Assembly: GCA_028386065.3 (NCBI GenBank)
Contig: JAKUCV010001993.1
Span: forward strand, 1 to 64,000
DNA from: Turnera subulata
Lineage: Eukaryota > Streptophyta > Magnoliopsida > Malpighiales > Passifloraceae
Reading direction: 5' to 3'
Length of the DNA stretch: 64,000 nt
Shown piece by piece: positions 1 to 30,678 of the stretch. Every line of letters starts with the position of its first letter. Position 1 is the stretch's first letter. The position numbers were made by a program, and so were the translations under genes. The notes under the pieces were generated by a model. The model saw nothing but the letters and a program-made list of their open reading frames with translations. It was not told the origin of the DNA and did not search any database.

Positions 1-1366
1 TCCAGGGTGCATAGCATACGGCGTCATATGTCCTTCTTCTAGAATCTGACTACGCAGATCACCAACATTGGGTACACATAGACGCTTTCCTAGCATCAAT
101 GCACTATCCTCCGCTATGTGGAACTTATCTTCCTTTCCACTACGGACTGCTTCCTTCAGCTTGATCAGGTCGGAATCTCCATCTTGTAACTCCACAATCA
201 ATCCTCTCAGGTTAGACTTGACTTCAATATGTGTCAACAAAGCTCCTGTCTCATCCACTGACAAATCAACTCCCATCTTCCTTAACTCGATGAGTGAGGA
301 CATCAAGTAGGTCGTGGAAGCATCTTCTGGTTGTCTCCGACTCAGAGCATCTGCTACAACATTAGCTTTTCCAGGATGATACTCAATAGTACAATCATAA
401 TCATTCAACAACTCAACCCAACGTCTTTGTCGCAGGTTGAGTTCCTTCTGGGTCATGATGTACTTGAGACTCTTGTGATCTGTGAAAATCCGGCATCTTT
501 CTCCAAACAGATAATGTCGCCAGATTTCCAAAGCAAGAATCACCGCAGCCATTTCTAAGTCATGTGTCGGATAGTTCTTCTCGTGTGGCCTCAACTGTCT
601 CGAAGCATAGGCTATCACTCGGCCTTCTTGCATCAGAACAACTCCCAAACCAAGTCCTGAAGCATCACAGAACAGTACGTACTCCACTCCTGGCTTAGGC
701 ACTGTCCAGACTGGTGCTGTTGTCAGCTTCTTCTTCAGTTCTTCAAAACTCTTCTGACAATCCTCACTCCAACAAAGGCTTGATCTTTCCTCAATAGCTT
801 GGTCATGGGACTGGCTATCAAGGAAAAACCCTCGAAGAATCTTCGATAATATCCTGCAAGGCCAAGAAAACTCCTGACTTCAGGTACCGTCTTGGGCGGC
901 TCCCACTCCAAAACAGCTTTTACTTTAGCAGGATCAACCTTAATCCCATCCCCGGATACAACATGTCCAAGGAATGCAACTTCTTCAAGCCAGAACTCAC
1001 ATTTGCTAAACTTAGCATACAACTCTTTCTCTCGCAATCTCTGTAATACTACTCTCAGGTGTTCTTCACCGTCACTTTGGTCAACTGGTGGTAGTCCACA
1101 CACATTCGCAAACTACCATCCTTCTTCTTCACAAAGAGGACTGGTGATCCCCAAGGTGAAATGCTAGGTCTGATGAAACCTTTCTCCAACAGCTCATCCA
1201 ACTGTTTCTTCAACTCTTGGAGTTCTTTCAGTGCCATCCCGTATGGAGCCATCGATATGAGTGTGACTCCTGACATCAGGTCGATGGTATACTCAACCTC
1301 TCTGTCGGGTGGCAAACCTGGCAATTCATCTGGGAGAGCATCAAGAAACTCCTTCACTATAGAATT
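1..1366 (-). pseudogene. Ty3/gypsy chromovirus pol fragment (RT - RNase H - start of integrase)
   Basis: Read on the minus strand this aligns to the pol of the full chromovirus at roughly 11425-13080. It starts in the RT N-terminus near 1357 ([16 protein letters not shown], then FIRPS and [17 protein letters not shown]) and runs through the RT thumb ([20 protein letters not shown]) and RNase H to the first residues of the integrase zinc-binding region (the MHPG region) at the window edge. Around 1070-1078 it jumps from the VTVKN block straight to [11 protein letters not shown]. This loses about 330 bp that hold the catalytic IDD motif. A frame change lies at the same place and further stops fall in 1-735. 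Gag and protease are missing: homology ends abruptly near 1366. It is a dead fragment of the same family as the 7028-16869 element, in the opposite orientation. Confidence 0.9.
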
Positions 1367-1422
1367 TATAATAGGTACCGCAAGGTTTCAGCTTACTTTC
1401 CCTACAAGTAAAAGGAATCCTA

Positions 1423-1708
1423 CCTAGGCTAGGTTTCTCCTTACTTGTCCACGCCAACTCAAACTTAAGGCGGCCAACCCTAGTCCAAGTCAGAATGGGC
1501 CAGCCCACACGCACACCTACTCAAACTAGGAATCCTGTGTGCCTTGGAATTCCTAGTGCGTGGCCAACCCTAGGCTAGGTTTCTCCTTACTTGTCCACGC
1601 CAACTCAAACTTAAGGCGGCCAACCCTAGTCCAAGTCAGAATGGGCCAGCCCACACGCACACCTACTCAAACTAGGAATCCTGTGTGCCTTGGAATTCCT
1701 AGTGCGTG
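1423..1708. repeat. Tandem duplication, two ~140-bp copies, period 146
   Basis: The block 1423-1562, from CCTAGGCTAGG to AGTGCGTG, is repeated at 1569-1708 with no difference that I could find by eye. A 6-bp spacer separates the copies. The unit is GC-richer than its AT-rich surroundings and has no reading frame. Near-identity implies a recent duplication or an assembly collapse/expansion. Confidence 0.93.
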
Positions 1709-2390
1709 ACACATAACTCCTAATTTCATTAAGTCTTTTATTAAATTAATTTGAAGTTGTTTAATTATTTCTCCGATGGACTAAACGCAAGTGAAGGTCC
1801 CCTAGGCTTAATTTCCTAATTACGTTAATACGTTTCTAATACGTTTAACTACCGTTCCTCTGGGCTAAATGATAATAGGCCCATACCTTATTTATTTATC
1901 AATTTCAATCTTATATAAATATTACTATACCTATATTTTCATCGGCTAAATAATAAAAGATCGTAATTTATATTCTTGGCTATATATATATACGAGTTTA
2001 TTTTGGACTAAAATAATAATAGTTTAATAGCAATTATTTCTACTGATTTTATTTTCACATATAACCCGTGCAAATTTATTTTGAGGCTAATAGTATTTTA
2101 TTTTATTAACGGTAATATTATTTTGAAATATCAATTCATTAACAGTTATAATATTTCCGTCCAATGATTTTGCTATACATTAAATCTAACTACTTAGTAT
2201 GTACAAGTTTTGAATTGTTATATTATTAAATAACCGTTGGATTAAATTAGTTACCACCAAGTTGGAAGAACTGTTTGGTAATAAGATAATTATGGATATA
2301 ATAAAATGAACAACTAAGCCGTCTAAATACAATTAAACTGGTATCATGCATAATCATTTTTGTTGTGCATTATAAGTGATTATTGTGTTC

Positions 2391-2393
<3 letters not shown>
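1709..2393. other. AT-rich non-coding stretch
   Basis: No open frame, RNA gene or transposon terminus was recognised. The sequence is AT-rich and may be a decayed part of the LTR whose 3' portion follows at 2468-3546, but I cannot align it to the intact LTRs. Confidence 0.5.

Positions 2394-2467
<74 letters not shown>
2394..2467. repeat. (TA)n microsatellite, 74 bp
   Basis: An uninterrupted TA dinucleotide run. The apparent IYIYIY reading frame across it is a translation artefact. Confidence 0.98.
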
Positions 2468-2472
<5 letters not shown>

Positions 2473-3546
2473 TCGAGGTTTGACCGGATAGCAGTTTCAG
2501 AGACACATCAGGTGAGGATGGATTTCCTTCAATATGTGCCTGTATTACTCGGTTATTGTGTTTGTTGATTATTGCATTGTTGGATGTTGCATTTGCTGTG
2601 GTTGGATTCGGGATGTTTATCCCATGGTCTTGATTGTTGTCGGGATGTTTATCCCATGTTGGTTTTTGGACGTTTATCCTTGAGTCTTTTTGGCATTACA
2701 TAAAATGGATTAAATAATAAATTGTGATAAGGATGTCGATCCTCGGTTTTGGATATGGATGTCTATCCCGGTATTTTGGTTAGGGATGTTGATCCCTGTG
2801 ATTTGGTTTTGATGATAATATAATTGTCACGTGATAAGTAGTGGTACGACTCGATGGTTTAAGACTATTTCGTGGTGGCCGTGACCTGGGTTACTTGTGA
2901 TAAGCATGTCTATGCTTGGGATGTCTATCCCGTGATTATTTTTGGGATGTCGATCCCTGGGTTCTCTTGATTTGGTCTGGCCCCCGGAATATGTTGATAA
3001 CCAGGTCTGACCCCTAGCTTATCCGTGACGGGGCCCGGAAAGATAAAATTGGAAAATGGGATTTTTATTTGAGTCTTTTGGTCTTGGACCAGTTTTGGGT
3101 CGAGTCTTTGGATTGTCTTGTTTTGGCTGTTATGCCTGTGTTTTCGCCTTGAGTAATTTTAGTGTTGCATATTGATCGTCTATCCATGGTTGTGAGCACT
3201 TCGGACTCACCCCTCACCTGCGGGCTTTCATCCCGTAGGATGGATTATTTGTGGTACAGGATTGGTGCATTCCAGACAGGCTGTGGCGTTATCCCTTGGA
3301 CAGGGCTCGGATCCATAGTTTGCATCAGTGTCGCATACAGTGTCTTGTGAGTTATTAAGTCTTCCGCTGTGCATTGTTTTACTATTGTTGGGCCACTGGG
3401 CCGGATATGATATTATTGTTGCTTTATTTTGGGCTGTTGTGCCCGAGTTTCTGTTGTATACATTGTAAGCTGGGCTTGGTTTGATTGAGTCGTCACAGTT
3501 CCGGCACGTGTTTACTGTGTACGGTAAATACGGGTCGGGGCGTCTC
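2468..3546 (+). mobile_element. 3' part of a Tekay-like chromovirus LTR
   Basis: Shares order and sequence with the last ~950 bp of the LTRs at 7028-9567 and 14334-16869: GTGAGGATGGAT, the GGGATGTCTATCCC hairpin series, ACCAGGTCTGACCCC, the block GTGAGCACTTCGGACTCACC, and the terminal GGTAAATACGGGTCGGGGCG ending in CA at 3546. It is a different subfamily from the full element because the hairpin region is longer. The right end joins tandem unit A exactly at CATCTCTTGTAAC, so 3546/3547 is a true LTR boundary. The left end and the matching target duplication were not found. The adjacent pol fragment at 1-1366 lies in the opposite orientation, so the region is rearranged or nested. Confidence 0.85.
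2610..2957 (+). repeat. Array of micro-hairpins GGGAT-GTNN-ATCCC in the LTR
   Basis: Nine short inverted repeats with a four-base loop GT(C/T)(T/G): 2610-2623, 2642-2655, 2668-2679 (degenerate), 2730-2743, 2757-2768, 2782-2797, 2902-2917, 2918-2931 and 2944-2957. Arms differ but stay complementary: GGGAT/ATCCC, AGGAT/ATCCT, AAGCAT/ATGCTT. Four equivalents occur in the intact 5' LTR at 8884-8970. Confidence 0.85.
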
Positions 3547-4831
3547 ACATCTCTTGTAACACCATTATACTTCGTCTAAAGTGGGGTTGATCTAAGTAGT
3601 AAGCAACTTAGTTTTGTTCATGCACGCTTCAGGTTTGAATCCTTGTGTATGCATAAAGTCTCCAATTGGCGACACACCGACCATAACTTGGTGCACGAGC
3701 TGTTGGACAATGAAAAAAAAAACATAGCAATCAAGAATCTAGTAGCAGTGGCTAGATTTTATTTTTTATATCAAGAAATGTATAAATAATATTTCTTCCC
3801 AACAACATTGCAATTTTATCTGCGGCTGGTGCAGTGAACTAAATTTAATTATATTGATTTTAGTAGGCATTATTTTGTTACATTTTTTGAGTCAAGGCTA
3901 ATTAAGTTTAAGGGTGAATACCTTGTCTTTGTAGGTAGATATGTTTTGTTTTTTGGATTTATTAGTGTAGCTGTTGTGAAGAAAGACAAATAAGTATATA
4001 TATAGTAGGTTGCTTGTGGCAAGGTATCCAATTAAAATCTGGGCAAAGATTGACAAGAGTTTCATATTAATATACATACAACAACTTACATATAATTTTC
4101 CTTGGCAAATACAGTGGAATCGGATTCTTTGGATTGTGAAATCTGATATACAAATTCACGTCTTTGTTTAGAATCCTAGGACATATTGTCGATCAAATAT
4201 CACCACTAAATGTGAAAATGAAGATATGCGTGGTCAAATAGATTGGTTTATGGAAATAAGTACTAAATTGATTTTGTATGAACCAATTACAAAATCAATG
4301 AAGAGGACCATATATCAGATTAAACACCTTTTATTATATCTAGAGTTTTCCATTTGTTCCAATGATATACTTCAAAGTTTTGTGTCCCTTCAAAGTACAT
4401 GGAGTTTTAATTTTTGTCCTTTTTGTAAACATCAGGCAGCCCATGTGATGACGTTGTAATCTCTCCGGGTCCACTTGACATGTGGTCTAATGCAATTGGT
4501 GCCATAAATGGTTATCACAAATAACCAAAAAGAACAATAAAAAATTGCCTACATCACAATTAATAAATAAAAATAAAAGTATAATTTAGTAATTGTCTTC
4601 ATTAATATTATAATTTAACAATTAAGATTATGTAATTTAAAATATCAAACGATTAATAAATACCATTAACAATAATCGATTTATATATGCTTATTCCACC
4701 GAAAAATGTGCATCTGTTTGCCTAGATTATATATAAAAAAAACTTCTCTTTATTAGATATAAATTCTTCTCAAGATAATGATTAGTACTATACCATGCCA
4801 TTTAAATAATACAATATAATACTGTACCACT

Positions 4832-5527
4832 TAGGGATGGCAATGGGTGTTTGTTAACCAGGAATCCGTGGGGAATCCCCGAATGGGGAACGGGGATGGG
4901 GGCAATTTTTCCCCCGCGGGGGTGGGGACGGGGGACATTTTGGCCCCGTGGGGAATTTGGGAATGGGGGCGGGGAGTGCTCCCCCGACCCACGGGGACCC
5001 CGAAATAAGCAAATATATAAAAATGCCCTTGAGTCATTATCCGATTAACCAATAAGTTAGAAATGGAGAGTAGGAAAAATTTTTGAGATGCAATTGTTGA
5101 GTTAGTTGAATGCAACAACTGGATTTTATTTTAGTGTTCTAGTATGTAATCAAGAGTGAAGACAATGAACTAGTAACAATTTTTAATTTTCTTGTCTTAT
5201 ATTTTGAATCATGTAAGCCAAAACAATTAAACTAATAATAATTTTTAATTTTATTGTCTTATACTTTGAATCATGTAAGCCAAAACAATTAAATTTGTTT
5301 ATAAGTTAGCTTTGATTACTTTTTAAAATATATATATTTTACCAATTTTTATCCGTCACATTGGAGAATGGGGTCCCCGTGGGGATCTGATTCCCTGCGG
5401 GGAACGGGGATGGGGGCAATTTTCCCCCCGAACGGGGAATGGGGATGGGGACGGGGGAACATTTCGAAAACGGGAGTGGGGGTGGGGAACCTTCCCCCGC
5501 GGGGACCCCGACCCATTGCCATCCCTT
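4832..5527. mobile_element. Non-autonomous hAT-like element (MITE), 696 bp
   Basis: Terminal inverted repeats of 17 bp, TAGGGATGGCAATGGGT at the left and the reverse complement of AAGGGATGGCAATGGGT at the right, flanked by a perfect 8-bp target duplication GTACCACT (4824-4831 and 5528-5535). An 8-bp duplication is the hallmark of the hAT superfamily. Unit B lacks it: the site near 23230 reads straight through. Both subterminal regions are packed with runs of four to six G (GGGGATGGGGG and similar). No transposase frame exists, so mobility would depend on a transposase from elsewhere. The short proline/glycine-rich frames here are not genes. Confidence 0.93.
5176..5297. repeat. Internal ~62-bp tandem repeat of the hAT-like MITE
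   Basis: The unit TTTTAATTTTCTTGTC...CATGTAAGCCAAAACAATTAAA occurs twice, with the matching points at 5181 and 5243. It has a few substitutions and lies in the AT-rich core between the G-rich ends. Confidence 0.8.
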
Positions 5528-7643
5528 GTACCACTACATTGCACGTGCTGAAAAAAACTAGTTACAAAAAAAATCTTATCACAAGATTTTTACACTCTCT
5601 TTCCTTTACAAATCTTCTTTTGCCTATAATTTTTGCTATTTTTTCCCTTCCTTTTTTATTTCCTTCATCCATTTACAATTTTCTCCACATTATCTTTTTA
5701 TTTGTCATTTTTTCCAATCTCCTTCTTCTCTCAAATTTGTATCACCATGTTTTCTCGTTTTCATGCTAACAGAATAACTTAGAATGCAAACTCTATAATT
5801 TAATGACCCTAGAAAAGAGAGATTGGGAGAAGTGACATGAAAACTAAAGGAAAAAAAGTATAATAGAAGTCAAAAGAATACAACAAGCCCAACTGATTAT
5901 GATGAAGGTCTAGGGATCATTTGTTTGTATATTTTCATCGTAAGAATTGTAATTAATCAAGGGAAGAGGTATACGAAACTTAAATTTGAAAAAAAAAACA
6001 TCAACATATTATAATAAACAAAAACCCTAAATTTGATAAGGGTTAATGGTATATTTGGTACCCTTACTCTTTCAAATTCGTCAATTGTATACCTCAACTT
6101 TTTTTTCCGTCAATTATATACTAGTACTTTTGAATTTGGGTCAATTGTGTACCCCGGACAGCATTTTGATGACGTGGCAAGCTGCCCGCCCAAAGTATGT
6201 ATCAATTTGGTCCCTAAATTTTTAATTTAATCAAGTAGGTCCTTTATAATTATACAATTAAGTCCTTAAAAATTATTTGTATTCAATTAAATCCCTTTTT
6301 TCAACGATCCGACTTTTATTTAAAATTTTAGTGTTATATATAATTAATAATTTTGGCAATACTTGATGTTATAATTATTGCTTATGTATGACTAATTCTA
6401 ATTATTCTAGTAAAATGTAATTAGTCATAAAAAAAAATTCTTATAAATATTCTCTTACAATAATAATAATAATTGATTATTTTAAGTTTATTATTATAAA
6501 TTTAATAATATTCATACACAATTTAATTTAATAGTAGACATATTTATTATTGTTATTCACCTTAAAATAATTTATAACTTTGTAAGTACCACTTGGTACT
6601 GGGGCATGAATTTGATCTTAAAAAAAAATCATTGTATTTATATTTTTTTGAAATTTTAAATTCCTAAATTGTCAAAATTAATAAAACATGACATATTTTT
6701 AAAATTTGAAATCATTCAATAAAATTTTATGTGATAAGTAATTAAGTAATATAATTGAATAATTCTTATCACCAGGTAATATACGCACAATAATTTATAA
6801 ATAAAACTACTCATGTACTACAAAATTTAGTGTAATAAAATAATTATATACCTACTATTATAAAAAAATATTATTGTGTATTAAATGTAATTTGGGAATG
6901 AAATATTATATAAATAATAATTACATATAATACTACGGGTTAAATTGTGGAAAACAAAAATATATGGAATGGATTGTATATTAATAAAGGACTTATATGA
7001 TTAATATAAAAACTTAGGGACTAAATTTGTAATGGCCCGGGTAAAATTCATGTTTTTACCGGGACTGTAAAAGCTTTGTACAGTAATTTACCTAATGAAA
7101 TTAATCTTGGGTAATTATTTCAGGGTAAATTATGCATCGGATTCTGAAACCGACCCTTACCCCACATTGTAGATTTTTCTGCGGATTTTACGGACCAGAG
7201 TTGGTGTTTTTCGGGTCCAGGGATTTCGAGGAAAGACAGGTTTAACCTCGAAAGAACGGACCAGAAATAAAGTAATAGGGGTATTTTAGTTATTTGCTGG
7301 TCCGGACGATACCCGCTCAAGTGTGTGTAACACACTTGCACCACGTTTTTCTCCTGCCATGTGAAGCTTCCTCTTCACCATGAAGCTTCACCCGACAATC
7401 TTCTCCTTCTCCAGCAAGACAATCAAATTCTTCCTCCTCACACTTTTTCAGCCTGAAGCCTCCCTTGAAATTTCTTTGCAGCTTCCACGCTTGTGCCTTT
7501 CTTCATGCTGCAAAAAAATAAAAAAACCTACCTCTGCCTTTGTTTCCTGCAAACAAACACTGATAGCCTACGTTCTACCCTCTGCACAAAAATCTCTGCC
7601 CAGATATTATTTACACTACAATATTACTAGTTTTACGTAAATA

Positions 7644-7843
7644 AAAAAAAAAAGAGAAGAAAAACAAAAACACAACAAGACGCACACCACCACCGTCGCG
7701 CCGCCACATCTGGGTCGAGTCATGGGTCAGGACGCTGGGCCACGCCTTGGCACGGGCCTTGGCACGGGCCCAAGTTCTGGGTTTGTGACCAGGCCTGGGC
7801 CTTGGTGCTTGGGCCGCGGCTGGACCTGCTGGGTTATTGGATT
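7644..7843 (+). other. 200-bp block related to the 3' LTR by complement without reversal (5' copy)
   Basis: If each base here is replaced by its complement while keeping the left-to-right order, the result matches 14954-15152 at all but about five positions and one homopolymer base. Example: GACGCACACCACCACCGTCG here corresponds to CTGCGTGTGGTGGTGGCAGC there. Flanking LTR sequence on both sides (ACGTAAATA / ACGCAAATA, and CAGTTTATGGGCTGG) matches normally. Confidence 0.93.
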
Positions 7844-8883
7844 CAGTTTATGGGCTGGCACAAATGGCCCAGTTTAAAAAAAAAAAGAGAGAAAGAAAAG
7901 AAAATAAAAATAAATATATACTTCTGGAAAAAAAATATAAATTTAGGGGAATATAGGAATATACTATAGGAAGAGTAACTTATGGTATTTTGACAGGTTG
8001 AGGTAATTAAGATAATAATTGTTGCTTTTGAAATTATAATATAGTAAACACCCTTGATATATTATGAATAAGTACATGCAAAATTTCCAAGAAAATCATA
8101 TTATGGTAAGTAATTCTGGTGGGTGTATTTTAAGGAATATATATATATGTTACCATTATTTTTGGAAAAAAAATTATCTTATGGTATAGAATAATTATGG
8201 AAAAATGATAAATAACAACTTTGGAAAAAAAATGGGGGAATTCTAGTGGTAAGTATATTTTGGAAATATATAATACATCGTGTGAAGAATAATTATTTTG
8301 GAAAGTACATACTTATGGAATAAATAAGGAAAGGGTATTATCAAAGTAATACCAGAATAATAACCGGGTATAAATACAGTATGGTATTTAGACACAGGAA
8401 TAATAAATGGTGAATGATAATGATAACGGGGTTTACCGGGACGTAGACGAATCAGTTTAGCTTTATTTTTACGGTATAGCATCATTTGCATTTATGTGCA
8501 TCTTATGTGAGTATGTGTTACTATTTGCTATATAGGAGCCAATAAGGAACAGTATCCCGAGGAACCGGAGCCGGGACAGTTTGAGGACTTCCAAGTGTAG
8601 GGAAATCGGCTAAGGTGAGGATGGATAACCTTTAGTATGTTGCACATGATACTGTATTTGTTTTTATGTGATTATTTGTCTGATTGAACCGCTGAGCCAA
8701 TTGAGTTTGATTGTGGTATCATTGCTGTTATTGTTGATTTGTTGATTGTGGATTTACCGATATGATGAGATAATTGGATAATTGGAAGTTGTGTTGACGA
8801 CTTATTTGTCACTAGGAAAGTAGTGGTACGACTAGTTGGTTAGAGACTGTTTTGTGGTGGCTATGATCTGAGTTACTTGTGTT

Positions 8884-8970
8884 AAGCATGTCTATGCTTG
8901 GGATGTCTATCCCGTTATTATATTTTTGGGATGTCTATCCCTGGTTCTATATTTTTGGGATGTCGATCCC
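8884..8970 (+). repeat. Four micro-hairpins in the 5' LTR
   Basis: AAGCAT-GTCT-ATGCTT (8884-8899), GGGAT-GTCT-ATCCC (8900-8913 and 8928-8941) and GGGAT-GTCG-ATCCC (8957-8970). The loop is constant and the arms vary together. In the 3' LTR one copy has lost pairing (TGGATGTCTATCCC near 16229). Confidence 0.85.
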
Positions 8971-9570
8971 TGGATTGATCTAGCACCCAGAACATGTTAA
9001 TAACCAGGTCTGACCCCTAGCTTGTCCAGTGACAGGGCCCCGAAAGATAAAACTGATAATAATTAAGTATTCTTTTGGTCTTGGCTCAGTTAATTACTAG
9101 TTGTTTCTCTGTTATGTCTTTTGCTGGAGTTTTACTTCGAAAGTATTGTGTTGCCTACATATTACTGTTTATCCTTCGTCGGTGAGCACGCCGGACTCAC
9201 CCTTCGCCTGCGGCGTTTCATCCCGTAGGATGAGTTGCTCGTAGTACAGGTACGTGGTTCAGCCAACTGCTGTTTCTACTCTACCAGACCCCGGATCCAT
9301 ACCTTCGTTGCATCTCATTCTAAGTCCTCCGCTGCTGATATTTTATTTGTTGTTGTATCATGTATTATATGTTTTGCAATATCACGTATTGTATGTTTCT
9401 GCTACTGCTGTTGTGGTTTGAATAATGGTCCCCGAGATCGGGTGACGGATGTTGTATTTGAGATTGCTTGTATTGTATTTTATAATGTATGTACTGTCTG
9501 CTACTGTAATAAGAACAGTTCTGGCACGTGTTTACTATGTACGGTAAATACGGGTCGGGGCGCTTCAGTT

Positions 9571-9582
9571 TGGTAGCGGAGC
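9571..9582 (+). other. Primer binding site TGGTAGCGGAGC
   Basis: Lies 3 bp after the 5' LTR. It starts with TGG, the complement of the tRNA CCA end. It differs at two positions from TGGTATCAGAGC, the usual plant initiator-Met PBS. The same variant serves three other elements in this window. Confidence 0.85.
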
Positions 9583-9691
9583 AAGCAGTAGGTCCTTAGG
9601 GTGATAATTGTGCTTGTTTGTTGCCTATATGTGCATAGTCTGGTTACTTCCTTGTCATAACATGCATGCATATATTCTCATATAGGTACGA

Positions 9692-10819
9692 ATGGATCCG
9701 GTGGGAGGAAACCAGCATGCTGAGCAGTGTTTGGAAGATGATCAGGTATCGGTCGATCAGCCGCAACCGGTCGTGGGTGGACAAGTACCCGCGGTAGTAC
9801 CGGGAGACACAACACAGATCTTGCATACTATGGCGCAGATTCTGCAGCATCAGGAAGCCAGGGATGCTCGTTTAGAGGCCAGGGAAGCCCATGAATAGGA
9901 GAATCAGGGACCTGTTGAGGATCCTATTTACACCAAGCTGTCTAAGCTAGGTCTTGATGCTTTCACAGGGGTTACTAACCCACAGGCAGCTGACGAATGG
10001 CTCCGTCAAGCTCACCGAGTGATGTTGAAGCTGAGATGCACAGAAGACAGGTGGGCTAGGTGTGTTGCATCTATGTTCCGCAATATTGCTGTGGATTGGT
10101 GGGATTCGGCAACACGTGACATGGCGAAACCAGTCACCATGCCTTGGGCACAGTTCACTGAGATGTTCCGGAGGAAGTTTGTTACCGATGTCTACCAGGA
10201 CCAACTCAAGTGAGAATTCCTGAGTCTGCGAAAGCGAATTGGACAGTCGGTGAACGACTATGAGATCCAGTTTGATCGTTTGTCCATCTATCCATCGGAG
10301 TATGTATCCACACCAGAGGCCAGATGCAAGCGTTTCTGGGATGGCTTGTGATCCTGCATCCAGACAGTCATGGGATGCAAGGTTTATGAGACTTATCAGG
10401 ATATGCTTGCAGATGCTCTTCGAGCAGAAGTTATTTGGATGGGGAACGAGAGAGAGATGGAAGAAGTCCGGAAGAGGAAATTTGCACAGAATGCTGGGAA
10501 TCAGAACCAGAGGTTCCAGAATGCCGGTAACAGGTCAGGGTATGGACAGACTCAATCCATGCCAGTGTCCCAGGGTCGAGGCTACAACAACAATCGTGGG
10601 AGTTCATGGACCCAGTCTGGAGGAACTTCATCCGGAGACACTCGCCCTAGACCTCCTTTGTCTAAGGTGAGGTACTTTGAGTGCAATGAAGTTGGGCACT
10701 ATCGGAGTTCATGTCCTAGGTTGGGAAGATCCGGAGTTCCTGTTCCTGCTCAAACCGTACAAGCATCAGTGGCCAGTGTACCTAGTGGTTCTAGAGTTGG
10801 TCGAGGCCGTGGACGTTGA
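9692..10819 (+). pseudogene. Chromovirus gag (capsid and zinc knuckle), interrupted by stops
   Basis: The frame opens at ATG 9692, 124 bp after the LTR, and continues without frameshift into pol. Retrotransposon Gag signature runs over about 9930-10260 (KLSKLGLDAFTGVTNP, then ADEWLRQA and WAQFTEMFRRKF). A glycine/asparagine/glutamine-rich linker follows. A zinc knuckle at about 10671-10720 has lost its first cysteine (YFECNEVGHYRSSC instead of C-x2-C-x4-H-x4-C). In-frame stops are at 9896 (TAG), 10211 (TGA), 10349 (TGA) and 10817 (TGA). Gag would form the virus-like particle and bind genomic RNA. The four stops rule out a functional product without extensive readthrough. Confidence 0.9.
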
Positions 10820-10846
10820 GCTGCTCCTACTCAGACACAGTCAGCT

Positions 10847-13800
10847 ATGAACCAGAGTGTAGTCGCTCCGAGGGCATTTATGATCACGGCTGAGGATGAT
10901 CCCGAGAATGCTGATGTTATTGCAGGTACCTTTACAGCTTTCGGTAGTATTGCATACACTTTGATTGATCCTGGTGCCACACATTCTTTTATCGCTCAGA
11001 GTTTTGCCATACAACATAGCTGTAAGGAAGAGAGTTTAGCAAGTCTGCTGAGGGTTAGATTACCCGCGGGCATAGTGGAGAGATTAACACAAGTGTGCAA
11101 GGGTGTCCTCCTTTCTTATGATGACGAGGTTTTCTTAGCACGTTTGGTGGTGATGAACATGGGGGGATTTGACATAATCCTAGGGATGGATTGGTTGTCA
11201 AGGTATAATGCCCTAGTGAACTGTCGGACTAAGGAAGTGCTGCTGACTTCCGATAATGGACGACAAGTTTTGGTAACCGGTATTAGGAGAGCTGCTGCCA
11301 CGTGTAGCATATCCGCTATGCAGGATTCTAGAGCGAAGTCGCATGGTCCAGATATTTTGTTGAACCACATCACAAGTGAAGAAGTACGGGATCCTACCCT
11401 AGGAGATATATCAGTAGTAAAGGAGTTCCTTGATGTCTTTCCAGATGATTTGCCAGGATTGCCACCTGACAAAGAGGTTAAGTATACCATCGATTTGATG
11501 CCAGGGGTCACACCCATATCGATGGCTCCATACAGGATGGCAGCAACGGAGCTTTAGGAGCTGAAGAAGCAGTTGGATGAGCTGTTAGAAAAGGGTTTCA
11601 TCAGACCCAGTACTTCACCATGGGGTGCACCAGTTCTGTTTGTCAAGAAGAAGGATGGTAGCTTGCGGATGTGTGTAGATTATCGTCAGCTGAACAAGGT
11701 GACAATTAAGAACAAGTACCCGTTGCCTAGGATTGATGATTTGTTTGACCAGTTGCAAGGATCCACTGTGTTTTCCAAGAATGATCTTCGGTCGGGGTAT
11801 CACCAGATCAAGATTGCTGAGAAGGACATACCGAAGACTGCCTTCCGCACACGGTATGGTCATTTCGAGTTCACAGTGGTACCGTTCGGATTGACCTACG
11901 CACCAGCAGTGTTTATGTGCTTGATGCACTTGGTCTTGAATGAGTTTTTGGATAAGTTTGTTGTGGTGTTCATCGACGATATCCTCATTTACTCAAAGAG
12001 CAAGGAGGAACATGAAAAGCATTTGAGGATAGTGTTACAGAGGTTACGGGAGAAGCAGTTGTATGCCAAATTCAGCAAGTGTGAATTTTGGCTTGGAGAA
12101 GTTTCTTTCCTTGGACATATGGTTGGCGGGGATGGAATAAAGGTTGAACCTGCCAAAGTGAAGGCCGTGTTGGAGTGAGAACCACCTAAGAATGTATCCG
12201 AAGTCAGAAGCTTCCTTGGACTTGCAGGATATTATCGGAGGTTCATTGAAGGTTTTTCCCTGTTAGCCAGTCCCATGACCAAGCTATTAAGGAAAGAACA
12301 GGCATTTGTTTGGAGCACAGAATGTCAGCAGAGTTTTGAGGAGCTTAAGAAGAAGCTGACCACAGCACCAGTTTTGACAGTACCGAAGCCTAGTGTTGAG
12401 TATGTATTGTTTTGTGATGCATCGGGACTTGGTTTAGGAGCCGTGCTGATGCAAGTAGGATGGGTGATTGCCTATGCCTCTAGGCAATTAAGGACTCACG
12501 AGAAGAATTATCCGACGCATGATCTTGAGATGGCAGCTGTGATCTTGGCTCTGAAGATTTTGAGACACTATTTGTTTGGAGAGAAGTGTCGGATTTTCAC
12601 TGACCACAAGAGTCTTAAGTATATCATGACTCAGAAGGAGCTTAACCTACGACAGAGACGTTGGGTTGAGTTACTTAATGATTATGACTGTACTATCGAG
12701 TATCACCCAGGAAAGGCTAATGTGGTAGCTGATGCCTTGAGCCGGAGACAACCAGAAGACGCTTCCACTAGTTACTCGATGTTTTCACTCATCGAGTTAA
12801 GTAAGTTGGGAGTCGGTCTGACAGTTGATGATACAGGAGCTTTACTGGCACACATGAGTGTCAAGTCTAATCTGAGAGGATGGATAGTGGAGTTACAAGA
12901 TGGAGATTCCGACCTGGTCAAGCTTAAAGAAGGAGTAAGGAGTGGAAAAGGAGATAAGTTTCATATAGCTGATGATGGAGCACTGATGATTGGGAAACGG
13001 GTATGTGTACCCAATGTCAGTAATCTACGTAGTCAGATCCTGGAAGAAGGTCATATGACGCCATATGCGATGCATCCTGGAAGCACCAAGATGTATCAGA
13101 ACCTGAAGAGTCATTTCTGGTGGCCTCGTATGAAGAAGGATGTAGCTGAGTATGTTGCAAAATGTCTCACTTGCCAACAGGTGAAAGCTGAGCATCAAGC
13201 TCCAGCAGGAAAGTTGAGATCCTTGACAGTGCCAGAGTGGAAATGGGAGATGATCACTATGGATTTTGTGATTGGTTTACCGATGACTCGGAGGCAGCAT
13301 GATGTTATTTGGGTCGTCGTTGACCGATTAACAAAATCGGCACATTTTCTACCTATCCGCCAAACTGATACCAAGCGGGTAAGTATGTTGCTGAGGTTGT
13401 GACACTACATGGGATTCCGAAGTTTATAGTTTCAGACAGGGATCCGAGGTTCACATCACGTTTCTGGAAGAGCTTACAAGCAGCTTTGGGAACTAAGTTA
13501 AGCTTCGGTACTGCTTTTCATCCTCAGACAGATGGACAGTCTGAGAGGACCATACAGACACTGGAGGATATGTTGAGGGCTTGTGCACTTAGCTTCAGTG
13601 GGAGTTGGGATAAGTATCTACCCCTGGTAGAGTTTGCTTATAACAACGGCTACCATTCCAGCATTGGTATGCCACCTTTTGAGGCCCTCTACGGAAGAAA
13701 GTGTAGGAGTCTAGTGTGTTGGGATGAAGAAGGTATGAGACTGATCGTTGGACCGGATCTAGTCCAACAGACAATAGATAAGATCCAGACGGTGAGACAG

Positions 13801-14292
13801 TGTATGAGAGCTGCTCAAGATCGGCAAAAGAGCTACGCTGACAAACACCATCGAGAGATGGAGTACAATGTTGGTGAGAAGGTTTTCCTCAGAGTAGCAC
13901 CTTGGAAGGGTGTGATTCGGTTCGGCAAAAGAGGGAAGCTGAGCCCGAGATATATCGGACCCTATGAGATCGTGGAGAGAATTGGACCATTGGCTTACAG
14001 GTTGTCCTTACCTGATGAGCTATCACGTATTCATGACGTGTTTCATGTCTCTATGCTGAGGAGATATCGATCGGACCCTAGCCATATTGTGGCCCCAATG
14101 GACGTTGAGGTAGCAGAGGACCTCACCTACACAGAAGTGCCGGAACAGATTCTTGCTCGAGAAGTTCGGCAGTTACGGAACCATACCATTCCCATGGTTA
14201 AGGTCAAGTGGAGTAAGCATTCCGCTAACGAGTCTACTTGGGAAGTTGAAGAACACATGCGGTCCCAGTATCCACATCTCTTCACAGAGTAG
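10847..14292 (+). pseudogene. Chromovirus pol (protease, RT, RNase H, integrase, chromodomain), degenerate
   Basis: In the same frame as gag up to 13402. The aspartic protease active site reads DPGATHSF (Asp codon 10967-10969). RT begins near 11560, with [18 protein letters not shown] and the catalytic F-I-D-D at 11969-11980. RNase H starts near 12400 ([12 protein letters not shown], Asp 12416). The integrase zinc-binding region is at 13070-13180, and its D-D-E triad lies near 13262, 13438 and 13541 (SERTIQ). The C-terminal chromodomain is at about 14130-14289 ([16 protein letters not shown] and [10 protein letters not shown]), which in related elements targets integration to heterochromatin. 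In-frame stops: 11555 (TAG) and 12176 (TGA replacing Trp). A frameshift with a short loss at about 13380 moves the rest into another frame. Confidence 0.93.
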
Positions 14293-14320
14293 GAATGAAT
14301 TTCGAGGACGAAATTCCTTT

Positions 14321-14333
14321 AATGGGGGTAGAC
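14321..14333 (+). other. Polypurine tract of the chromovirus
   Basis: AATGGGGGTAGAC lies immediately before the 3' LTR start TGTAAC. This is the expected plus-strand primer position. It follows the gag-pol frame by 28 bp. Confidence 0.85.
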
Positions 14334-16869
14334 TGTAACGGCCCGGGTAAAATTCATGTTTTTACCGGGACTGTAAAGGCTTTGTACAGTAATTTACCTA
14401 ATGAAATTAATCTTGGGTAATTATTTCAGGGTAAATTATGCATCAGATTCTGAAATCGACCCTTACTCCCACGTTGTAGATTTTTCTGCGGATTTTACGG
14501 ACCAGAGTTGGTGTTTTTTGGGTCCAGGGATTTCGAGGAAAGACAGGTTTAACCTCGAAAGAACAGACCAGAAATAAAGTAATACGGGTATTTTAGTTAT
14601 TTGCTGGTCCGGACGATACCCGCTCAAGTGTGTGTAACACACTTGCACCACGTTTTTCTCCTGCCATGTGAAGCTTCCTCTTCACCATGAAGCTTCACCC
14701 AACAATCTTCTCCTTCTCCAGCAAGACAATCAAATTCTTCCTCCTCACACTTTTTCAGCCTGAAGCCTCCCTTGAAATTTCTTTGCAGCTTCCACGCTTG
14801 TGCCTTTCTTTATGCTGCAAAAAAATAAAAAAAAAACCTACCTCTGCCTTAGTTTCCTGCAAACAAACACTGATAGCCTACGTTCTACCCTTTGCACAAA
14901 AACCTCTGCCCAGATGTTATTTACACTACAATGTTATTAGTTTTACGCAAATATTTTTTTTTCTCTTCTTTTTGCTTTTGTGTTGTTCTGCGTGTGGTGG
15001 TGGCAGCGCGGCGGTGTAGACCCAGCTCAGTACCCAGTCCTGCGACCCGATGCGGAACCGTGCCCGGGACCGTGCCCGGGTACAAGACCCAAACACTGGT
15101 CCGGACCCGGAACCACGAACCTGGCGCCGACCTGGACGACCCAATAACCTAACAGTTTATGGGCTGGCACAAATGGCCCAGTCTAAAAAAAAAAAGAGAG
15201 AAAGAAAAGAAAATAAAAATAAATATATACTTCTGGAAAAAAATATAAATTTAGGGGAATATAGAATTATACTATGGGAAGAGTAAATTATGGTATTTTG
15301 AAAGGTTGAGGTAATTAAGATAAGAATTATTGCTTTTGAAATTATAATACAGTAAACACCCTTGATATATTATGAATAAGTACATGCAAAATTTCCAAGA
15401 AAATCATATTATGGTAAGTTATTCTGGTGGGTGTATTTTAAGGAATATATATATATGTTACCATTATTTTTGGAAAAAAATTTATCTTATGGTATAGAAT
15501 AATTATGGAAAAATGATAAATAACAACTTTGGGAAAAAAAAAGGGGGGAATTCTACTGGTAAGTATATTTTGGAAATATATAGTACATCGTGTGAAGAAT
15601 AATTATTTTGGAAAGTACATACTTATGGAATAAATAAGGAAAGGGTATTATCAAAGTAATACCGAAATAATAACCGGGTATAAATACAGTATGGTATTTA
15701 GACACAGGAATAATAAATGGTGAATGATAATGATAACGGGGTTTACCGGGACGTAGACGAATCAGTTTAGCTTTATTTTTACGGTATAGCATCATTTGCA
15801 TTTATGTGCATCTTATGTGAGTATGTGTTACTATTTGCTATATAGGAGCCAATAACGAACAGTATCTCGAGGAACCGGAGCCAGGACAGTTTGAGAACTT
15901 CCAGGTGTAGGGAAATCGGCTAAGGTGAGGATGGATAACCTTTAGTATGTTGCACATGATACTGTATTTGTTTTTCTGTGATTATTTGCCTGATTGAACT
16001 GCTGAGCCAATTGAGTTTGATTGTGGTATCATTGCTGTTATTGTTGATTGTGGATTTACCGATATGATGAGATAATTGGATAATTGGAAGTTGTGTTGAC
16101 GACTTATTTGTCACTAGGAAAGTAGTGGTACGACTAGTTGGTTAGAGACTGTTTTGTGGTGGCTATGATCTGAGTTACTTGTGTTAAGCATGTCTATGCT
16201 TGGGATGTCTATCCCGTTATTATATTTTTTGGATGTCTATCCCTGGTTCTATATTTTTGGGATGTCGATCCCTGTATTGATCTAGCACCCGGAACATGTT
16301 AATAACCAGGTCTGACCCCCAGCTTGTCCAGTGATAGGGCCCCGAAAGATAAAACTGATAATAATTAAGTATTCTTTTGGTCTTGGCTCAGTTAATTACT
16401 AGTTGTTTCTCTGTTATGTCTTTTGCTGGAATTTTACTTCGAAAGTATTGTGTTGCCTACATATTACTGTTTATCCTTCGTCGGTGAGCACTTCGGACTC
16501 ACCCCTCGCCTGCGGGGTTTCATCCCGTAGGATGAGTTGCTCGTAGTACAGGTACGTGGTTCGGCCAGCTGCTGTTTCTACTCCACCAAACCCCGGATCC
16601 ATACCTCCGCTGCATCTCATTCTAAGTCTTCCGTTGCTGATATTTTATTTGCTGCTGTATCATGTATTATATATTTTGCGATATCACGTATTGTATGTTT
16701 CTGCTACTGCTGTTGTGGTTTGAATAATGGTCCCCGGGATCGGGTGACGGATGTTGTATTTGAGATTGCTTGTATTGTATTTTATAATGTATGTACTGTC
16801 TGCTACTGTAATAAGAACAGTTCTGGCACATGTTTACTGTGTACGGTAAATACGGGTCGGGGCGCTTCA
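14334..16869 (+). repeat. 3' LTR of the chromovirus (2536 bp)
   Basis: Matches 7028-9567 over its full length except for the complement-type block at 14954-15152 and scattered substitutions, mostly C/T and A/G. Ends GGGGCGCTTCA before the MULE sequence resumes. Confidence 0.95.
14954..15152 (+). other. 199-bp block related to the 5' LTR by complement without reversal (3' copy)
   Basis: Counterpart of 7644-7843. Starts in a run of nine T, where the 5' LTR has ten A, and ends at CCAATAACCTAA, where the 5' LTR has GGTTATTGGATT. Neither direct nor reverse-complement alignment works; position-by-position complement does. The 5' version may be the original: its A-rich start (AAAGAGAAGAAAA) resembles the A-rich tract just downstream in both LTRs. 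Confidence 0.93.
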
Positions 16870-17956
16870 AAATCGCTACATACCATTAAAAGGGTAGCAT
16901 GCCACGTCATCAAGGTGCTGCCCGAGGTACACAATTGACACAAATTTAAAAGTACGGGTATATAATTGACGAAAAAAAAAGTTGAGGTATACAATTGACG
17001 AATTTGAAAAAGTATGGGTATCAAATATACAATTAACCCATTTGATAAAGAGAAGAAGTAAAAAAAAAATAGATTGAAAAGAGAAAGGAGGAAAAGAAAT
17101 GGATTCGAAACGGATGGAAGGCGCCGCAAAAAAAAATGGAATGGAAAGAGATGGTCAAAATCTTGGTGATAACATTTTTTTATAATGAAAACTCTAATTG
17201 TATAATTTTTTAGTGAAAGAAAGGACGATGTTAAATTTAAATAAAATCATCCAATGTACATATGTCACGCATGTTTATAAAAATTTTCTAGTAAGAAACT
17301 GTTTAGAACTCTAGCATTTGATAGATAAATTTACAAATAATCCTTGGCAAAAAAAACTGGTACATTAGAGAACTTCTACCAAAAAAATTATGTTAGGTCC
17401 ATGCCATTTGGATAATATCAAAGTGAAGATCTAGCACCAAATAGGTTTAGCCTGACAAGATTTTCATATTTATATACAGAAATTTACAAATAATATTCCT
17501 TGGCAACAATATTGTAATTGGATTCTTTGGATTGTAGGATCTGATATACCAGCTCACATGTTTGGAATCCTTCAACATATTATTCCATCAAATATCACCA
17601 ATAAAATGTGAAAATTAAGATGTAGTCAAATAGACTTTCTAATATTTGAATAACAAACTTATTTTTCACGAATTGGTATCTGTGAAATTTTCATTACACC
17701 TAAATTTTATTCCAGCAATCTGTTTGAGTTTAGTAAGAGGAGGACTATATCTCCACGATTTCAATTTCCTCCTCCATGTTATATAGGTCTCCTATTTTTT
17801 AAATTCAATTTTACAAGTCATCTGTGTCATTTATGGAAAATAATATTTTAAATATAAACAACACCACATATCATATTCTGTTGGCCATACATAGATAAAT
17901 TAGAAGATTGCCTTAAATGAAATAAATTATAAATCCCATCTCTTCCTCATTCACAC

Positions 17957-17964
17957 TATAAATA
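17957..17964 (+). promoter_or_regulatory. TATA box of the PMEI gene
   Basis: TATAAATA, 89 bp before the ATG, in a block (TTCACACTATAAATACAAACC) that is conserved in the unit B pseudogene (25009-25016) and recognisable in unit C (28634-28641). Confidence 0.75.
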
Positions 17965-18045
17965 CAAACCATATGTTCTTAGTTTTCTCATATTTCTTGT
18001 GACAACTTACTTATTTTTTTTGAACATATTTATTCTTATCATTTG

Positions 18046-18600
18046 ATGAAGAAAATGTTATCTTTTACTAGTTGTCACAAATATTTTTGTGTTTTTTTGC
18101 TTGCAATATTCATCACGATCATTGCAGTCTCGGGCGATCAAGAAACCCAAGACCGGATCGACAAGATCTGTCGCCAGATGGAAGACTATGGCTTTTGCAA
18201 CAAAGTCTTTAATGACAATTTAAGAGCAACCTCAACGGATTTTGTTGGTTTAACAGCAATTACGTTGGACCAAACCATACAAAATGCAACTAGCACACAT
18301 CAATTTATCGTGGATCTTCTACCGAAAACAACTGATCCAGCTTTGAAGAATGCACTTATAGCTTGCGAAAATGGTTACCGTGTGGTTCAACAAGCTTTCC
18401 AGGAAGCCAAAGGATTTTTCCAGCACCATGATTATGACAGTGTCCAAAAATCAGAAACGATAGCACCTAGGGCACAAGGAAGTTGTGATACTACTTTCAT
18501 AACACCACCAGCTCCTGCAAGTCCACTTGTTGAGAGGAATAGACAAATGAGGATCCTCATTGCCATGGCTCTGTTCACTGCCCATCAACTCTCCCCTTGA
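18046..18600 (+). CDS. Pectin methylesterase inhibitor / invertase inhibitor-like protein (PMEI domain)
   Basis: A 184-residue, intronless secreted protein. I start it at ATG 18046; the next in-frame Met is three codons on. Residues 1-31 form a signal peptide: basic start, hydrophobic core FCVFLLAIFITIIAVSG. The mature part shows the family pattern: a first cysteine pair in a helical hairpin (ICRQMEDYGFCNKVF, C-x7-C), later cysteines in ALIACENGY and GSCDTTF, and the helices around DPALKNALIACENGYRVVQQ. Members are four-helix bundles that inhibit pectin methylesterase or acid invertase in the wall or vacuole; the sequence alone does not tell which. The length fits the family. It resembles the pollen allergen-type invertase inhibitors. 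It has its own TATA box and poly(A) signal. It is the only intact copy among three tandem units. A role in the flanking array is not implied. Confidence 0.9.
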   Translation: MKKMLSFTSCHKYFCVFLLAIFITIIAVSGDQETQDRIDKICRQMEDYGFCNKVFNDNLRATSTDFVGLTAITLDQTIQNATSTHQFIVDLLPKTTDPALKNALIACENGYRVVQQAFQEAKGFFQHHDYDSVQKSETIAPRAQGSCDTTFITPPAPASPLVERNRQMRILIAMALFTAHQLSP

Positions 18601-18667
18601 TGGGACTTCAATATTGTGAACTTGCTTTTGTTATGAACTTTGCTGCATTTTTGTACCTCATTTATTA

Positions 18668-18673
18668 AATAAA
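18668..18673 (+). terminator. Poly(A) signal AATAAA of the PMEI gene
   Basis: AATAAA, 68 bp after the stop codon, within TTTATTAAATAAACCC. The same block is kept in the unit B pseudogene near 25674. Confidence 0.6.
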
Positions 18674-19264
18674 CCCATTCGCCTATTGATTATTCCATTG
18701 AAATGAATTAGATGCGTCATTTATGATGGTTAATTAGCTTCTCATTCTTTTCGATAACAAACTTTTAGAAAAATTCGTTTTTTAATTGGCAATAGTTCAA
18801 CACCTATATGTATAAATTTACAATCACCCATCTCTTGTAACACCATTGTACTTCATCTAATGTGGGGTTGATCTAAGTAGTAAGCAATTTAGTTCTGTTC
18901 AAACACGCTTCGGGTTTGAATCCTTGTGTATGTATAAAGTCTCCAATTGGAGATACACCGACCATAACTTGGTGTGTGAGCTAATGGACAACAAAAAAAA
19001 AAACATAGCAATCAAGAATCTAGCAGCCGTGCCTAGATTTTAACTTTTAAATCAAGAAATGTATAAATAATATTTCTTCCCAACAACATTGCAATTTTAT
19101 CTGCGGCTGGTGTACTGAACTAAATTCAATTATGTTGATTTTAGTAGGCTTTATTTTGTTACTTTTTTGGAGTCATGGCTAATTAAGTTTAAGGGTGGAT
19201 ACCTTGTTTTGTAGGTAGATATGTTTTTTTTTTTGTTTTATTAGTGTAGCTGTTGTGAAGAAAC

Positions 19265-19268
<4 letters not shown>

Positions 19269-19305
<37 letters not shown>
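19269..19305. repeat. (AT)n microsatellite, 37 bp
   Basis: An uninterrupted AT run, followed by more imperfect TA-rich repeats to about 19350. Confidence 0.95.
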
Positions 19306-19307
<2 letters not shown>

Positions 19308-19465
19308 AATAAACATGTATATATATATTAGTATGGATATATATATTTATAGTAGGTTGCTTGTGGCAAGGTATCAAATTAAAATCTGGGCAAAGATTGA
19401 CAAGAGTTTATTATTAATATACATACAACAACTTACATATAATTTTCCTTGGCAAAAACAGTGGA

Positions 19466-19861
19466 GTCGGCCTATCTCTCTCTGCTTTCTAGCTCTCCTA
19501 CCACTCTCCAACCACTTGTGTGGCTGGGATTTGCACCTTCTAAGATTGAGTTCTTTCTATGGTTGGCTATGAATGAAGGGGTCATAATTAGAGAGTTTCT
19601 TGGCCACAAGGGCTTCATACCAGTAGGGGACATGGTTTGCCCTTTCTGTCAAATTGATTTGGAGGATATCCATCACTTGTTGCTTCTTTGTCCGATTATT
19701 TTGCCATTATGGCAACGCCTCTGTCGTTGGTGGGGAGTTTGTTTGATCAATCCGGGTAGTGTTGCTGCTTGGTTGGTGCACTGGCCCGGCATTGCAGGAA
19801 GCCGTCATGCGGAGCAAGCATGGTTCCTGTTGGGTCTTGCGCTTATGTGGTCGATCTGGCA
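19466..19861 (+). pseudogene. LINE fragment encoding the RT zinc-binding (zf-RVT) region
   Basis: The translation has the plant L1 zf-RVT pattern: GFAPSKIEFFLWLAMNEGV, then CPFCQIDLEDIHHLLLLCP (C-x2-C ... H ... C), then LWQRLCRWWG and LLGLALMWSIW. It replaces about 150 bp of the unit's spacer (compare 26285-26440 in unit C). It is not flanked by a poly(A) tail or a clear target duplication. The right junction falls at TGAACGA, which is present in both LINE and spacer contexts. It is therefore more like a repair patch than a simple insertion. Confidence 0.8.
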
Positions 19862-19899
19862 TTTGAACGACTATCTGTGACATTTTTATTGATGATAAG

Positions 19900-20173
19900 T
19901 GTTGGGTATTAAACTAAGCCCAATTAGTTTGGGTTTAAGAGTCTTTATATTATTGGATTTTAAGAGTCCAAGTCCGGTACGGTTTAGGAGTCGGTCTTGT
20001 CCGTTAAGTCAGAGTCTGTTATAAATAGGTGTGTCAGGGTTTTATTATTAGGTGTAGCTGTGTAACACATTAAGAATTGTGAGTGTGACTACCGTGAGGG
20101 GCACCGAGGTGTCGCCTAAGTTTCAAATTATATAATAAAGTTTGTGTGTTGAGTGAATTTCTTATATTCTACA
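19900..20173 (+). repeat. 5' LTR of the gag-only element
   Basis: 274 bp, TGTTGGGTATTAAACTAAGC to TTATATTCTACA, with a possible TATA-like TTATAAATAG near 20020. Confidence 0.93.
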
Positions 20174-25608: not shown

Positions 25609-27979
25609 TGGGACTTCAATACTGTGAACTTCCTTTTGTAACGAACTTTGCTGCAATTTTGTACCTCATTTATTAAATAAACCCTTTTGCCTATTGATTA
25701 TTCCATTGAAAAGAATTAGATGCGTCATTCATGATGGTTAATTAGCTTCTCATTCTTTTCGATAACGAACTTTTAGAAAAATTCGTTTTTTAGTTGGCAA
25801 TAGTTCAACACCTATATGTATAAATGTACAATCACCCATTTCTTGTAACACCATTGTACTTCATCTAATGTGGGGTTGATCTAAGAAGTAACCAACTTAG
25901 TTCTGTTCTAGCACGCTTCGGGTTTGAATCCTTGTGTATGCGTAAAGTCTCCAATTGGAGACACACCGACCATAACTTGGTGCGCGAACTAATGGACAAC
26001 AAAAAAAACATAGCGGCAATTTTATTTGCGGTTGGTGTACTGAACTAAATTTAATTATAATGATTTTAGTTGTTTTTATTTATTACATTTTTGGAGTCAA
26101 GGCTAATTAAGGTTAAGGGTGAATACCTTGTCTTTGTAGGTAGATATTTTTTTTTTTGGTTTTATTAGTGTAGCTGTTGTGAAGAAAGACAAATAAATAT
26201 ATATATAAGATTGACAAGGTTTTTATATTAATATACATACAACAACTTACATATATTTTTCCTTCGCAAAAACAGTGGAATTGGATTTTTTGGATTGTGA
26301 AATATGATATACAAACTCGCGTATTTGTTTAGAATCCTAGGACATTTTGTCGGTCAAATATCACCAATAAATGTGAAAATGGAGATATGCACAGTGAAAT
26401 AGAATGGTTTATGGAAAATAAGTACTAAATTGATTTTGTATGAACGAATATCTGTGACATTTTTTATTGTCGATAAGTTTTTTCATATGGAGTTTAGTAT
26501 GGAGAGGACCATATATCGGATTAAACATCTTTTATTATATCTAGAGTTTTCCATTTGTTTCAATCGTATACTTCAAAGTTTTGGTCAAAAGAATACAATA
26601 ACCCCGACTGATTGTGATGAAGGTTTAGGGATCATTTGTTGGTATATTTTCATTGTCTGAATTGTAATTAATGAAGAGAAAGGCAAATAAAACGTAAATT
26701 TGAAAATAAAACATCAGCCTATTATAATGAAAACAAAAACCCTAAATTTGATAAAAAGAAAAGTAAACAAAAATTAGATGGAAAAGAGAAAGGGGGAGAA
26801 AAATGGATAGGAAAGGAAGGTGGCGCAAAAATTGGAACGGAAAGAGATGATCAAAATCTTGGTGATAACATTTTTTTATAATAAAAACTCTAATTATAGA
26901 AATTGTTAATGAAAGAAAGGATGATGTGGAATATAAATAAAATCTCACACATGTTTATAAAAATTTTCTAGTAAGAAACTCTCCACAGCTCTAGCATTAT
27001 TGATAAAGAAATTTACAAATAATCCTTGGCATAAAGCTGGTACATTTAAGAGCTTCTACCGGAAAAGAAATATGGTAGGTCCATGCCATTTGGATAACAT
27101 CAAAGTGAAGATTTAGGGCCAAATACGTTTAGCATGACACGATTTTCATATTTATATACATAAATTTACAAATAATATTCCTTGACAATAAAATTGTAAT
27201 TAGATTCTTTGGATTGTAAGATCTGATATACTAACTCATGTCTTTGTGTAGAATCCTTGGACATACTGTTCATCAAATATCACAAATAACTGTGAAAATG
27301 AAGATATAAATGGTCAAATACATTGGTTTTTGGAATATACGTACTAAATTCATTTTGTATGAACTAATATCTCTGACATTTTTTTTGTTGTTGATAAGTT
27401 TTTTTCATATGGAATGGAGAGGACCATATATCAGATTGAACACCTTTTTATATATCTGGAGTTTGCCATTTGTTCCAATCCTATACTTCAAAATTTTTGC
27501 GTTCCTTTTATGTACTTCGAATTTTAATTTTTGTTTCTTTTGTGAACCTTAGGCAGCCCAAGTGATGACATGGTATTCTGTCCGGTTTTACCTTGACATG
27601 TGGCACAATATAATTGGTGCCATGTGGAAAATTTTGTAGGACTCACAAGCAGAGAAATTTAAAAAATAAGGTGGGAACCACACTTGTTTCTTGAATCGCA
27701 ACTCGTGTCAAGTGATATACAAAAAGGACAAAAAGGACAAAGTTGAAACTCAAGGTATGTAAAAGGGAACCCCAAAAACTCTAGATACACATTGAGACCT
27801 ATAAAAAACTTCAGGAATATAAAAAGTGTTTATTCCACCATACATCCTAACATTTGGATTTGAATTTCCTCTTTTATGTAGATATCTTTCCTTTATTCTA
27901 GCTTAGCCGATTGCACAAGTCATTTGTGTATGTATCATTTTAAAAAAATTAAAATTTCAAATACAAAGGACACCATAAA

Positions 27980-30567: not shown

Positions 30568-30655
<88 letters not shown>

Positions 30656-30678
30656 TCTCAGGCCTATCTGGGCTAACA
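29391..30678 (+). repeat. 5' LTR of the Sirevirus-like element
   Basis: 1288 bp, TGATGACCTAAACATGAGC to GGGCTAACA. It is 78 bp longer than the 3' LTR because of the poly-C tract and a short CTCCTCTCAGG insertion. Contains the palindromes TGGTTTCTTACAAGAACCA and TTGGTTTCTGTAAGAAACCA near 29525-29580. The short frame at about 29900-30145 recurs in the 3' LTR and is not evidence for a gene. Confidence 0.93.
30569..30652 (+). repeat. 84-bp poly-C homopolymer
   Basis: An unbroken run of 84 C in the 5' LTR. The 3' LTR has six C at the same place (48975-48980). Confidence 0.97.

Follow-up and report, generated by a model that had tools for sequence, protein, structure and literature searches.

A complemented block in one LTR of a retrotransposon

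In the window, by which we mean the whole 64,000-base stretch of plant DNA analysed here, a single LTR retrotransposon poses the question of how one slice of its 3' LTR came to be recorded as the complement of the homologous slice in its 5' LTR, with the left-to-right order of the bases kept. The element and its parts are as follows.

7023..7027, + strand: probable target-site duplication of 5 bases, AAATT (AAATC at 16870-16874, one difference)
7028-16869: insertion, one element carrying both LTRs
7028..9567, + strand: 5' LTR, starting with TGTAA and ending with TTCA
7644..7843, + strand: version A, the homologous block in the normal form of the family (assembly matches, seven of seven other loci)
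12275..13402, + strand: pol fragment with RNase H and integrase zinc-binding domain, Ty3/gypsy (PF17917, PF17919, PF17921)
13399..14292, + strand: C-terminal part of integrase, with Tf2-1-like SH3 domain and chromodomain (PF24626, PF00385)
14334..16869, + strand: 3' LTR, starting with TGTAA and ending with TTCA, matching the 5' LTR directly everywhere but at 14954-15152
14954..15152, + strand: version B, the altered block of 199 bases, an order-kept complement of the normal LTR (alignment, permutation test, assembly search)

As judged by its predicted products, the host element is a Ty3/gypsy chromovirus, because the internal ORFs match RNase H, integrase zinc-binding, Tf2-1-like SH3 and chromodomain families. 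With other LTR retrotransposons of this group it shares the LTR pair of the TG...CA type and pol domains with integrase and chromodomain. It differs from an ordinary chromovirus in the complemented block of one LTR, and no other peculiarity of the element was noted. For the product of 13399..14292, 7993 relatives were scored; of the 120 listed, those with the highest identities (73-75%) were mostly Sesamum proteins, from which the host would be a flowering plant, perhaps belonging to the order that includes Sesamum.

Several features elsewhere in the window were also noticed. A second LTR-like pair (34520-36077 and 41279-42849, 96% identical) lies around copia-type gag and integrase ORFs, and a direct repeat pair (29391-30574 and 47785-48980), 95% identical over ~1.2 kb, possibly represents the LTRs of an element that received the copia insertion. 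The adjoining stretches 49592-49881 and 49882-50172 form a tandem duplication of ~290 bases with 99% identity. At 30557-30667, an unfiltered complement scan picked out a stretch, 91% mirror-symmetric, that contains at least 48 consecutive C; so long a C run is unusual for a plant contig and is possibly a sequencing or assembly oddity.

Relation between the two copies of the block

When positions 7644-7843 of the 5' LTR were aligned with 14954-15152 of the 3' LTR, the complement-only, order-kept alignment scored 187, while the direct, reversed and reverse-complement alignments failed (-33, -4.5 and -20, respectively). The former alignment comprises 199 positions, 194 of which are identical; after re-complementing, the five mismatches are four transitions and one transversion, and the 5' copy carries one extra A (200 vs 199 bases). 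We also compared the two stretches under all 24 letter permutations in both directions. The exchange A<->T + C<->G read forward gave 194/199, and the runner-up rule gave 116. The initial annotation, which was made from the letters of the window, had described a match that exists solely as an order-kept complement, with failing direct and reverse-complement alignments and about five mismatches, chiefly transitions, plus one homopolymer base; all of this agrees with our alignments. On the other hand, its near-round length of 200 fits the unaltered 5' copy only, as the altered 3' copy is 199 bases long.

Both edges of the block are base-sharp (14953/14954 and 15152/15153), in line with the sharp edges noted in the initial annotation. 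A stretch-wide exchange of letters by a single rule with the order kept, and an abrupt return to normal sequence, are both true of the block. Substitutions after re-complementing amount to 2.51% of the 199 positions. The parts of the LTRs outside the block match directly, with 2.76% on the left (616 positions) and 2.86% on the right (1715 positions), and the earlier impression that the block had diverged about as much as its flanks was correct. The 50 bases to the left of the block (7594-7643) contain four clustered differences; this cluster looked odd at first sight and was then set aside, as ~10% of the 50-base windows in both LTRs carry at least four differences.

BLAST of the 64 kb window against its own complement recovered the pair of 7644-7843 and 14954-15152 at E 5e-93. 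At E <= 1e-3, the same comparison returned 46 rows unfiltered and eight with the low-complexity filter. The latter were the block pair (two rows) and six rows of 31-49 bases, which correspond to an AT-rich, mirror-like repeat piece (4051-4103, 19414-19462 and 26228-26276) at E 1e-6 or weaker.

The 3' copy is the altered one

The assembly searched comprises 518.7 Mb in 7125 contigs, and the window corresponds to bases 1-64000 of its contig C1803; bases 1-20000 of that contig are identical to the window, and the two may be the same file. With version A as the query, 91 candidates were obtained and 40 were scored, all 40 being matches, namely the block itself and 39 others. Each of these 39 covers the block partially, with 74-98% identity. 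With version B, the search returned a single candidate and a single match, which was the block itself; as this type of search skips simple repeats and very common words, the absence of further matches is not absolute. Version A was also present in seven of seven other aligned loci. The 5' version A is thus the normal sequence of the family and the 3' block is the altered one, because version A is common to the seven loci and the 39 matches and version B was found only here. The initial annotation had guessed that the 5' version was original, and had suggested searching the genome for other LTR copies of the family; version A proved widespread, being the norm in the 39 non-self matches among the 40 scored of 91 candidates.

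Base composition alone was rejected as a judge of the natural version because it was not decisive, and the other genome copies settled the question. In Markov models comparing version A with version B, order 1 favoured A (ratio 13-28), orders 2-3 weakly favoured A (1.6-3.3) and order 4 slightly favoured B (0.78). Without removal of homologous repeats, A was preferred at orders 1-3 and B at order 5, and order 4 gave a divided result.

Outside this genome, no relatives were found in viral contigs (protein search and a 32-base LTR pattern), in plasmids or phages (distant blastn), or in a separate genome-contig collection queried with a 20-base version A pattern. A protein search of the latter collection gave 15 matching loci, at 32-41% identity, which lie in bacterial bins and were left aside. 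Proteins translated from the version A and version B frames yielded 10 and three candidates, respectively, none of which was scored, and they favour neither version.

Version B derives from the element's own 3' LTR

At window position ~7701-7708, all seven other loci carry ~335-350 bases that are missing from both LTRs of the present element, and the resulting junction is also present in version B. None of the 39 non-self version A matches spans the block in one piece. Since version B shares this private junction, its source is the LTR of the present element. Position 7773 has, in the re-complemented 3' copy, the family state seen in seven of seven loci and, in the 5' copy, a private base, and version B was therefore not made from the 5' copy. 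Version B is thus the 3' LTR sequence of this element, complemented. The lineage of the element seems to have undergone a private deletion at 7701-7708. The extra ~335-350 bases of the seven other loci display a 7-8-base overlap at the junction (block positions 58-65), and the deletion perhaps took place at a short direct repeat.

Search for further complemented stretches and for traces of inversion

We used the complement of window positions 7201-8000 as a query against the 518.7 Mb assembly, both as a positive control and to detect any complemented parts of this region of the LTR. The search returned a single candidate, which was also the single match (C1803:14951-15152), and no second such place was found for the stretch searched. 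This corresponds, for positions 7201-8000, to the complement-only scan that had been suggested for the genome, and the block was its sole match. A broader set of 217,109 bases consisted of the window and 18 loci of the same genome (L026-L043), a non-random sample as 12 of the loci were picked for carrying this LTR family and the remainder adjoin such places. In this set, all complement-only matches at E <= 1e-8 with the low-complexity filter on involved the block, with the one exception of a self-mirrored stretch in L026 (5904-5990).

Inversion yields reverse complements. A small inversion would resemble the present case in being sharply bounded on both sides, within a pair of sequences that is collinear elsewhere; it would give a reverse complement, whereas that alignment fails here (-20 vs 187), and inversion as the written state is excluded. 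A comparison of the two 150-base flanks of the block found inverted matches of 7 bases at most, and 200 random places gave a chance mean of 7.4. As the inverted match at the edges is at chance level, there is no trace of inversion.

Mutation contexts and the age of version B

A block edited by computer would have acquired its point mutations while still version A; a real version B dating back to the insertion would have acquired them as version B. We polarised the differences between the two LTRs with the seven other loci. Among the five differences in the block, four are private to the 3' copy and one (7773) is private to the 5' copy. In version A letters, the 3'-private changes are 7666 A>G, 7741 C>T, 7759 T>C (polarised with a base present in just four of seven loci) and 7813 G>A. 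The flanks carry 66 differences, comprising 33 private to the 5' LTR, 31 private to the 3' LTR and two that could not be polarised. Summed over both copies, C-to-T-type changes in the flanks occurred at 12 of 118 CG, 15 of 180 CHG and 11 of 569 CHH sites, and the rates at CG and CHG are 4-5 times higher than that at CHH.

Two of the four 3'-private changes in the block are of the C-to-T type; read in version A, both sites are CHH, and read in version B, they are CHG and CG. The likelihood ratio for mutation in the version B context is 10.0 (95% range 3.3-33, from rate uncertainty), and a ratio this high was reached in 1.8% of simulated version A histories, although the test concerns two events only and was conceived after seeing them. 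This methylation-context result is the sole evidence here for the physical reality of version B, and it does not outweigh the lack of any chemistry able to produce a copy in parallel order. The 5' copy of the block has no private C-to-T-type changes; ~2.9 are expected per copy in the version A context.

Described parallels

The closest described parallel is the swinger DNA put forward by one group. Swinger DNA following A<->T + C<->G is said to have been detected in genes of both the nucleus and mitochondria, across many GenBank projects independent of one another, and Seligmann states that he alone describes such sequences as swinger, according to the parts of his account considered here (PMC4942731). 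A limited literature search found no criticism of the swinger claims. In the portions of that account drawn on here, the example of Kamimuria wangi 16S rDNA shares with our block a match that appears after A/T and C/G exchange, with the order kept, within regular sequence; the example concerns a mitochondrial rRNA gene, and here the exchange affects 199 bases of a plant retrotransposon LTR (PMC4942731). Our case also offers an internal reference, namely the sister copy at a distance of 7 kb. Both cases are known from written sequence. The Kamimuria wangi mitogenome was put together with ContigExpress and DNAMAN from clones that had been sequenced, and its lrRNA was annotated on the opposite strand, with a 44-helix fold consistent with other insects, as stated in the sections of the mitogenome paper considered (PMC3900512). 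From these sections, we infer that a complement-without-reverse slip in writing the gene is the plainer reading of the K. wangi 16S case.

Complement repeats, class C of REPuter, have the same formal relation as our block, that is, complement without reversal. In a survey of four plastomes, in the parts consulted, each genome contained 0 or 1 complement repeat of at least 30 bases, and repeats, whatever their class, were mostly 30-90 bases long (PMC5877577). The present block differs from such repeats in extending over 199 positions at 97%, and in being positionally homologous within a retrotransposon rather than a chance similarity.

Candidate explanations

The block is almost certainly not a biological feature. 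It is most probably an artefact of the record, in which 199 bases of the 3' LTR were complemented computationally while their order was kept. At some step between the raw reads and the file, the stretch 14954-15152 would have been complemented, not reversed, and rewritten in place, and the true 3' LTR at these positions would be version A with the few point differences of this copy. The step responsible may have been assembly, consensus or variant editing, or later file preparation, and was presumably computational in nature. The initial annotation had favoured an in-silico edit or a file or assembly error, and the single occurrence of version B in the assembly supports this preference without proving it; it had also reasoned that a local artefact would be less likely if both versions had many independent copies in the genome, and, with version B having one copy, the artefact reading survives. 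An artefact would explain why the block and its flanks have diverged to a similar degree, because a normally mutated LTR would have been edited afterwards, albeit a real event at insertion predicts the same. Against the artefact, the altered length of 199 is not round, and we know of no program that makes exactly this complement-without-reverse error. A literature search, judged by titles and the beginnings of abstracts, found no report of a complement-not-reversed assembly error. An alternative that also involves a faulty record is a real small inversion at 14954-15152 that was miswritten as a plain complement when a consensus was built or variants were applied. Such an inversion would account for the 199-base slice with its two sharp edges, and a single simple programming mistake would be enough for the miswriting. 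Nevertheless, we consider this improbable, as the inverted repeats at the edges are at chance (longest 7, mean 7.4), seven other aligned loci carry the block in normal orientation relative to the right flank, and two rare events would be required together.

A physical origin of version B would demand that, while the 3' LTR was being reverse transcribed or repaired near the time of insertion, 199 bases of new DNA were made as a complement in the same order as the template (the 'swinger' exchange A<->T + C<->G), and were then inherited and mutated as version B. The two 3'-private C-to-T-type changes fit the methylation contexts of version B (likelihood ratio ~10), and an event at insertion would also give equal divergence in the block and the flanks. 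Nonetheless, this explanation appears very improbable: copying in parallel would violate the antiparallel rule of base pairing, no enzyme is known to perform it, the assembly yielded a single case, and the context argument consists of two events recognised after the fact. To our knowledge, no polymerase copies a template in parallel orientation. A<->T + C<->G is the only exchange rule reported for swinger DNA in the parts of the account considered (PMC4942731), and yet its named example, K. wangi 16S, reads more plainly as an orientation slip, judging from the portions of the mitogenome paper at hand (PMC3900512). Finally, version B might have arisen independently as a natural variant of the LTR, or be an unrelated insert that happens to resemble a complement. 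The chance of this is negligible, as 194/199 positions agree under one exact rule (E 5e-93), a match that by itself excludes such an origin for practical purposes, and no other copy of version B was found in the assembly.

Implications

If the block is an error, as we believe to be most probable, a plant assembly, as published or as later handled, can carry complement-without-reverse stretches, which are invisible to ordinary direct or reverse-complement searches. Pairs of LTRs provide a ready-made internal check for errors of this kind. If raw reads supported version B, it would be the first case known to us of parallel-order DNA copying with an internal control, the sister LTR; a real version B would contradict a basic rule of template-directed synthesis and would be extraordinary.
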